NCBI RefSeq assembly: GCF_004209775.1
Contig: NZ_CP035914.1
Span: 2,542,001 to 2,606,000 of the forward strand
Source: Synechococcus sp. WH 8101
GTDB taxonomy: Bacteria > Cyanobacteriota > Cyanobacteriia > PCC-6307 > Cyanobiaceae
Length of the DNA stretch: 64,000 nt
Reading direction: 5' to 3'
Below the pieces are notes generated by a model. That model ran no database searches and was not told the DNA's origin. It was given only the letters and a program-made list of their open reading frames with translations. The stretch's first letter is position 1. Every line of letters starts with the position of its first letter. Shown here piece after piece: positions 5,892-9,380 of this stretch. Both the position numbers and the translations under genes were made by a program.

Positions 5892-8116
<2,225 letters not shown>

Positions 8117-8127
8117 ATCGACCCAGA

Positions 8128-8676
8128 TCACAGCTGCACCGCTGGCTGCTGGAGGGTCTCGGCCTTCCAGAGACGCCAGCGCAGATCCAGATTGGCCGGC
8201 AGATCCACCACGATCGGCCAGGAGGCGTTGTAAGGCACCAGATAGGGCTGCTTGCCGAGGGAGAGGAAGGAAGGCTCGGGCTTCTGATCCGGCGGGCAGG
8301 CCTTGCGGGTGCTGACCACCATCACAGGACCTTTTACTTCAAACAGGGCCCGTCCGGACGCCTGCGGCAGGCGGCGCATCGTTAGGCCAGGCCCCGACAG
8401 ACGCTGCAGGTTGCAATCCAGCATCACCTCCCGGCCCACGATCAGCTGGATGCGCCAATCGATCGGGTTGGCAGAAATCCTGGGATCCGAGCTCTTCGGC
8501 AGCAGGCCGGAGGGCTGAATCACCCAACGCTTCAGACCAGGTGCCGGTGCGGGATACCCACTCAGATCGAGGCGGGGGATCGCCTTGGTGGGAGCAGCAG
8601 CGCCCAGGGCGCTGATCAACAATGCTGCCGCCCATGCTCGCCGCCCCACCGTCTGGCTCCACGTTCTGGTCATCAC
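8128..8676 (-). CDS. Ecotin-type periplasmic serine protease inhibitor
   Basis: 182 residues with an N-terminal signal peptide (hydrophobic stretch about 14-28, cleavage around the Ala/Thr/Lys run at 26-32), so it should be exported. The rest aligns by eye with ecotin: [16 protein letters not shown] (74-89), [11 protein letters not shown] (118-128), then [11 protein letters not shown] (148-158) and LRWRLWKAE (165-173). The two cysteines (88 and 127) correspond to the single ecotin disulfide. In E. coli ecotin the reactive loop reads STMMAC with Met at P1; here it is STRKAC, so P1 would be Arg124 and P1' Lys125. That suggests preference for trypsin-like proteases. It sits between queE and queC on the other strand, 23 nt from queC. 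Confidence 0.85.
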
Positions 8677-8699
8677 CCCGCGGCAACAGAATGCCCAGC

Positions 8700-9380
8700 A
8701 TGACCGATTCCCTCGCGATTGCCCTGCTCTCGGGCGGGCTTGATTCCGCCACCGCCGCGGCCCTGGCGCTGGAAGCCGGCCATCGAGTGATCGGCCTCTC
8801 CTTCGACTACGGCCAGCGCCATCGCCGGGAGCTGGAGGCCGCCCGCCATCTGGCCGACAGCCTCGGCCTGGATGAGCACCACACGATCGCCGTCAACCTG
8901 GCCAGCTGGGGCGGCTCCTCGCTGACCGATCGCCGCCAGGAGCTGCCCAAGGAGGGGGTGCAGCAGGGTGTGATTCCCAGCACCTATGTGCCAGGACGCA
9001 ACACCGTGTTCATTGCCATCGGCCTCAGCCTGGCCGAAGCCCGTGGAGCTGATCAGCTTGTGCTGGGCGTGAATGCCGTGGATTACTCCGGCTATCCCGA
9101 TTGCCGGCCCGACTATCTCAGCGCCTATCAGACCCTGGCCGATCTGAGCAGTCGCGCCGGGCGGGAAGGCCACGGCCCCCGCCTCTGGGCACCGCTGGTG
9201 GAGTGGAGCAAGCAACGGATCGTGGCGGAAGCCCTCCGCCTCGGGGTCCCGATCGCGCAAACCTGGAGTTGCTATAGCGGCGGCGCCCAACCCTGCGGAG
9301 TGTGTGACAGCTGCCGAATCCGCGATGAAGCCCTGAGGGCCGCCGGCCGCCCCGATCTGTGCAGCCCCGGCACACCATGA
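8700..9380 (+). CDS. queC: 7-cyano-7-deazaguanine (preQ0) synthase
   Basis: 226 residues. QueC uses ATP and ammonia to turn 7-carboxy-7-deazaguanine into preQ0. It carries the PP-loop SGGLDS at 11-16, FDYGQRH near 37-43, YVPGRNTVF around 101-109 and the C-terminal zinc site [16 protein letters not shown] (about 191-206). An ATG 9 nt upstream (8691) is also possible; I chose 8700 because homology begins at MTDSLAIAL. The stop overlaps the ATG of the next gene by 4 nt. Together with queE this gives two steps of preQ0 synthesis in the window; queD and queF are not here. Confidence 0.95.

Follow-up and report, generated by a model that had tools for sequence, protein, structure and literature searches.

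We found that Synechococcus sp. WH 8101 encodes a genuine member of the ecotin family of protease inhibitors, and that this protein belongs to a distinct picocyanobacterial type. Its predicted reactive site has Arg at P1, and it lacks key residues of the second protease-binding site that is known from the ecotin of Escherichia coli. We think it fairly probable that the protein is an exported, canonical inhibitor of trypsin-type S1 proteases whose binding depends mostly on the 80s and 50s loops and is narrower than that of E. coli ecotin, and that its targets are mostly exogenous. We infer export, dimer formation, inhibition, the preference for trypsin and the kind of target. All coordinates refer to the window, which is the whole stretch of DNA analysed (64,000 nt; NZ_CP035914.1, 2,542,001-2,606,000).

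Table 1. Features of the ecotin gene and its neighbours, with positions in the window.
Feature	Position	Strand	Basis or remark
queE, 7-carboxy-7-deazaguanine synthase	7508..8116	+	TIGR04322 best model, 116 bits, below cut-off of 200
Ecotin gene	8128..8676	-	182 aa from GTG 8676; alternative start ATG 8673, directly next codon
Mature ecotin domain, 150 residues	8131..8580	-	AlphaFold2 model, structural matches
100s loop VPYNASWP, replacing E. coli LRYNSKLP	8215..8238	-	alignment
Reactive 80s loop S122-T123-R124-K125-A126-C127	8296..8313	-	alignment
P1 codon CGC, Arg124 (E. coli Met84)	8305..8307	-	alignment
60s loop, 10 residues replacing E. coli LEGWGYDYYV (part of second protease-binding site)	8341..8370	-	alignment
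10-residue insert, residues 58-67, near domain N-terminus	8476..8505	-	alignment
Probable signal peptide, residues 2-32, ending A-P-T-K-A before I33	8581..8673	-	by-eye reading
queC, 7-cyano-7-deazaguanine synthase	8691..9380 (start 8691 or 8700)	+	TIGR00364, 211 bits, above cut-off of 150.3

An ecotin of a picocyanobacterial type

The protein matched the Pfam family Ecotin (PF03974) with 101.8 bits (E = 3.3e-29; cut-off 22.2). The family is I11 in the MEROPS nomenclature (PMC9904509). Over 142 aligned columns, 35% of residues were identical to those of E. coli K-12 ecotin (eco, b2209), with which the protein shares the fold, both cysteines, the S-T-P1-x-A-C loop and the W-K-A-E motif before the C-terminal arm. 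The arm has the length found in E. coli and a variable sequence. C88 and C127 align with the E. coli disulfide cysteines C50 and C87, in agreement with the earlier note, and are predicted to form the same bond; both are present in 101 of 101 picocyanobacterial ecotins (102 of 102 sequences with E. coli included). The protein scored below the cut-off of the NCBIfam equivalog model for ecotin (NF002987; 67 bits, cut-off 162).

The predicted structure agreed with this assignment. We modelled the mature domain with AlphaFold2 as a monomer, using the window protein and 52 relatives (79 loci, 71 of them complete enough and 52 left after thinning). The model had a mean pLDDT of 88.8 and a pTM of 0.81, and exposure of the reactive loop was taken from homology. 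In a Foldseek search it matched 29 PDB chains with E values of 0.001 or less, all of them titled as ecotin or ecotin complexes. A structural aligner placed 19 PDB ecotin entries at Z 13.5-14.9, and the next entry was at 2.7. The earlier identification as ecotin was borne out by both the family profile and the comparison of the predicted fold with ecotins in the PDB, structure prediction having been proposed as a check.

A match over the whole mature length had also been claimed. The extent of the match held (profile positions 2-122 of 122), but collinearity was imperfect due to the 10-residue insert. An insert of identical length was found in 101 of 101 picocyanobacterial ecotins, and it was missing from E. 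coli ecotin and six other proteobacterial ecotins. The N-terminus of the window protein is hydrophobic and, by eye only, has an A-x-A-like end; A32 and P34 were invariant among 16 sequences. Relatives have an ATG near the matching start place, which is a weak guide given that their starts were picked by a script.

The reactive loop and the second binding site

The earlier note had pointed to Arg at P1, with STRKAC in place of STMMAC, and the alignment agreed: STRKAC lies in the canonical 80s loop before Cys87, opposite E. coli S82-T-M-M-A-C87. A survey of picocyanobacterial genomes for the gene and its P1 residue, suggested at the same time, found further carriers and indicated that Arg is the usual P1 residue of picocyanobacterial ecotins. 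Among 101 distinct mature sequences (from part of the 119 matching genomes of the family), P1 was Arg in 72, Leu in 16, Lys in 12, Ala in 1 and Met in none, so that 84 of the 101 had Arg or Lys. These counts leave out five fragments (L043, L119, L120, L121 and L127) and three divergent second ecotin-like genes (L042, L123 and L124). In the 30-sequence clade that contains the window protein, P1 was Arg in 17, Lys in 12 and Ala in 1; that is, it was basic in 29 of 30. The ecotin of Synechococcus WH7803 (L030/L044) is a form with Lys at P1. Since Leu and Ala also occur at P1, a trypsin-type tip is evidently unnecessary for retention of the gene.

Within the STxMAC frame P1 varies most, and P2 was Thr in 101 of 102 sequences, E. 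coli counted. When the contact columns were left out of the tree, P1 changed at least 13 times, and crossed between basic and non-basic at least 11 times with the E. coli row included, several of these crossings being among close relatives in the Cyanobium part; these counts are rough, as the tree rests on few columns and leaves many forks unresolved. We considered whether P1 is an unusually fast site and rejected this: its 12 changes compare with a median of 10, and 61 of 148 columns changed more.

A basic P1 residue is not new among ecotins and has already been published. In animal pathogens the contact loop commonly has Met or Leu, and Arg or Lys is found in Tatumella citrea, Burkholderia glumae and all Rhizobium (PMC9904509). 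These are natural cases of a cationic contact-loop residue, like that of the window protein. ISP2 of Trypanosoma brucei likewise has Arg at P1, and trypsin inhibition is little affected by changes at P1 (PMC8248637).

The missing second site, as read from the alignment, is a more telling feature than the Arg at P1. E. coli ecotin has a second grip on its target, formed by residues 67-70 (WGYD) and 108-113 (PMC7773321, PMC9136129). The window protein differs from E. coli ecotin in having lost GWGYD and Arg108. Within the 100s loop, Arg108 is replaced by Pro, Lys112 by Ser and Leu113 by Trp. In the window's clade, position 67 was Ser or Ala, never Trp, in 30 of 30 sequences, and position 108 was Pro in all 30. 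Outside this clade, Trp67 was kept in 20 of 71 sequences and Arg108 in 4 of 71. In Cyanobium, GWGY is found together with Leu at P1, for example in L002/L105. The proteobacterial ecotins in our comparison (E. coli and 6 of the 22 matches from a plasmid collection) had GWGY in 7 of 7 and Arg108 in 6 of 7. With the second-site residues gone from the window's clade, P1 should matter more than usual.

P1 class may itself be tied to loss of the second site. A basic P1 was found in 12 of the 20 sequences with Trp67 vs 72 of the 81 without it (naive Fisher p = 0.005). This association is suggestive; there were too few independent pairs for a tree-based test.

Other ecotins share some of these features. 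The Rhizobium ecotin that we examined has Arg at P1, as here, but keeps GWGYD and LRYNSRLP. Ecotins of Campylobacter rectus and Campylobacter showae have a second site unlike that of E. coli, and in C. rectus P1 is Leu instead of Met (PMC7773321), but they differ from the window protein in that P1 is not basic, and in phylum and gene neighbourhood. The best of 17 PDB sequence matches was the engineered 1ezs (60.6 bits, a small margin over the next at 59), titled as ecotin M84R/W67A/G68A/Y69A/D70A bound to trypsin. This variant combines Arg at P1 with a disabled 60s loop. It was made in the laboratory, and the 100s loop and the insert of the window protein differ from it. Judged by these residues, the laboratory design has a natural counterpart in the window ecotin.

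It could be argued that the protein is a broad inhibitor like that of E. coli, in which Arg at P1 is of little consequence and other contacts carry the binding. ISP2 of T. brucei, with its Arg at P1, and the Rhizobium ecotin, in which Arg at P1 goes together with an intact second site, both speak for this. In addition, a 1994 paper reportedly found, according to its title, that the P1 Met is not crucial to ecotin specificity. However, the contacts that would have to carry the binding are those that are missing, as the key second-site residues are gone in all 30 sequences of the clade. We consider this reading unlikely. The claim that Arg at P1 predicts trypsin-like targets was reasonable as a first guess and gains support by another route, the lost second site, but was too strong as worded, P1 alone being said not to be crucial.

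Work on engineered ecotin bears on this point. The substitution M84R raised the affinity for the trypsin-like MASP proteases and, in inhibition of the lectin pathway, largely compensated for a weakened second site (PMC9136129). Based on the Arg at P1 together with the lost second site, the likeness to 1ezs and the M84R data, we infer that the window protein works as a one-site, trypsin-type inhibitor. The exported ecotin would act on trypsin-type S1 proteases in a substrate-like (canonical) manner. Arg124, on the 80s loop beside the predicted C88-C127 disulfide, would be inserted into the target's acidic S1 pocket. The clamp-like second site, the source of the broad reach of E. coli ecotin, is eroded in the window's clade, and binding would then be mostly through the 80s and 50s loops and hence narrower.

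Gene neighbourhood, distribution and selection

The gene lies antisense between queE and queC, in agreement with the earlier description of a reverse placement between two preQ0 genes. It is convergent with queE, the stop codons being separated by 11 bp, and divergent from queC, with 17-26 bp between ATG 8673 and the two possible queC starts. We found no promoter or terminator consensus sites in 8050-8900.

This arrangement is widely conserved. One scan of genome contigs yielded 79 loci, and 74 of these had queC on the 5' side of ecotin and in the opposite orientation (more than 1 kb away in L070, L074, L077 and L104). In the remaining five queC was not seen; the contig ended in two and three were without it (L076, L100 and L105). 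The place of queE was less constant: 61 of the 79 loci had it beyond the 3' end of ecotin and in the opposite orientation, at a distance of no more than 150 bp in 40 of them and of up to 3879 bp in the others. Of the other 18 loci, seven had less than 4 kb of sequence on the 3' side, and 11 had at least 4 kb and were without queE; Synechococcus WH7803 (L044), which carries ecotin, is among these 11. In 42 further loci, partly from the same organisms, queC was in the same place in 41 and queE was present in the short flanks in 21. In Synechococcus sp. GFB01, two contigs carry an ecotin match (L076 and L100), neither with queC in the sequence examined.

We also looked at the interval in 20 comparison genomes. 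Eighteen of these had no ecotin match, G039 had only a divergent ecotin-like gene elsewhere, and the copy in G059 is broken. The spacing between queE and queC was at most 170 bp in 14 of these 20 genomes without an intact ecotin there, and in three queE was not seen in the sequence examined. In two (G300 and G338, both of genus g5), a gene of approximately 285 codons that resembles hydroxyacid dehydrogenases lies between queE and queC (L132:2226-3083, minus strand, and L130:650-1504); the one tested had matches below all cut-offs. The queE-queC interval accepts genes.

The earlier note had described the ecotin gene as if inserted. We ruled out a recent mobile insertion by the conserved place beside queC (74 of 79 loci), and this conserved divergent arrangement, together with the basic P1 in 29 of 30 sequences of the clade, led us to drop the description. 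The presence of ecotin beside queC in many genera is as expected of an old gain followed by later losses.

Ecotin was limited to the window's family in our samples. Of 386 genomes sampled evenly across the phylum, 22 matched, all within the family, and 38 genomes of the same class but outside the family had no match. A sample of 400 family genomes from 59 genera gave matches in 119 genomes and 17 genera. The other 281 genomes had no match, including 163 of the 251 with at least 90% completeness. Divergent, broken and fragmentary copies are included in these counts (G039 and G059 in both samples; G492, G514, G610 and G687 in the family sample). In the window's own genus, 30 of 31 searched genomes matched, that of WH 8101 included, and the sole miss (G015) is 63% complete.

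Some copies are broken. G059 (genus g30) has a copy with an in-frame stop beside queC (L127:1700-2360, minus strand), stops were also found in the copy of G514 of the same genus, and G336, also of g30, has an open copy. Based on the stop-bearing copies in two genomes of g30 and the 281 of 400 genomes without a match, the gene is dispensable. One might go further and regard it as a passenger that was acquired long ago and is now on its way to being lost, and these same two facts would fit. But 30 of the 31 searched genomes of the window's genus carry ecotin, both cysteines are kept throughout the 101 sequences, and four close pairs (dS 0.12-0.19) had dN/dS of 0.03-0.12. These are simple Nei-Gojobori estimates. 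There is purifying selection in the close pairs, and we regard the passenger reading as very improbable. Over long times constraint looks loose, as the median dN/dS was 0.45 and the highest 1.0 in 3043 pairs with dS of 0.05-1.2.

Several other ecotin-like sequences turned up. The ORF that comes after the broken copy of G059 looks, by eye, like that of a Nif11-like leader peptide. The divergent second genes are L042:1330-1941 (G039), L123:1489-2139, minus strand (G021) and L124:1034-2089, minus strand (G019), none with queC in the sequence examined. Two matched PF03974 with 38 and 27 bits; the protein encoded by the third matched no Pfam family and, judged by eye, seems to be made up of two ecotin-like halves. 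These genes may be a separate inhibitor family. Among IMG/VR viral contigs there were 22 pattern matches, but not one was confirmed. The only match in a phage collection was in an unannotated Salmonella phage record of 1676 bp (OR851562.1:1190-1600; 31% identity), and this stretch may be host DNA. A role in anti-phage defence was rejected, as no PADLOC family matched at E values of 0.001 or less.

Candidate targets and what the inhibitor may do

Exogenous proteases are the favoured targets. They would most likely come from protist grazers, as digestive proteases, or from neighbouring bacteria, as exoproteases, and would meet the ecotin after reaching the periplasm or the cell surface. By analogy, Leishmania has ecotin-like inhibitors yet no trypsin-family peptidases (PMC3440592). 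Ecotin probably shields the cell from the digestive enzymes of other organisms.

The cell's own periplasmic proteases, suggested earlier as one possible target, look the weakest candidate. Deg proteases prefer small aliphatic residues at P1. The genome of WH 8101 has only three matches to PF00089, each of which, in a check made in this genome, carries a PDZ domain as in Deg/HtrA. We compared PF00089 matches in 38 other genomes. The 23 with ecotin had 3-5 matches and the 15 without had 2-5. With these counts overlapping between carriers and non-carriers, there is no clear extra protease that travels with ecotin.

It is conceivable that ecotin regulates or restrains the Deg/HtrA proteases of the periplasm. 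Deg proteases have the S1 fold, and at least three PF00089 matches were found in 23 of 23 ecotin-positive genomes vs 8 of 15 ecotin-negative genomes (exactly two matches in 0 of 23 vs 7 of 15). However, this difference partly tracks the size of the genome, as all but one of the seven with two matches are smaller than 2 Mb, and among the ecotin-negative genomes seven had three matches and one had five. The PDZ domains on all three matches in WH 8101 also weigh against it. In addition, E. coli ecotin reportedly does not target endogenous proteases (PMC9904509). Regulation of the cell's own proteases thus seems quite improbable to us.

Among exogenous targets, the proteases that ecotin wards off might be those of competing bacteria and not those of grazers. 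Loss of ecotin reportedly increases the susceptibility of E. coli to type VI killing by Vibrio cholerae (PMC9904509). Sequence cannot separate grazers from bacterial competitors. Protection mainly against competitors is possible, and we hold it tentatively.

In the literature searched, with subscription papers and database annotations outside its scope, we found no study of a cyanobacterial ecotin. The main text of a 2023 review of ecotins (PMC9904509) has no word starting with "cyano" or "Synechoco", and PMC6944378 has none starting with "cyanobact". Public databases may already list picocyanobacterial ecotin-like proteins.

Grazing is a main cause of death of Synechococcus. If the window protein is an envelope inhibitor of trypsin-type proteases, then resistance to digestion could be tested in a model prey by one knock-out. 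The picocyanobacterial ecotins are also a natural experiment on the two-site mechanism, as they include hydrophobic and basic P1 residues, with or without the second-site residues, and these variants sit mostly in one conserved gene neighbourhood. A more speculative notion, to which we give little credence at present, is that picocyanobacteria made a broad ecotin into a single-site inhibitor whose tip can be exchanged. The second site would have been lost and the STxMAC frame largely kept, and P1 would change mostly between Arg, Lys and Leu, tracking the proteases of local grazers or competitors. If true, these ecotins would be to an abundant group of aquatic prey, in the form of a protein, what peptide trypsin inhibitors are to bloom-forming cyanobacteria.
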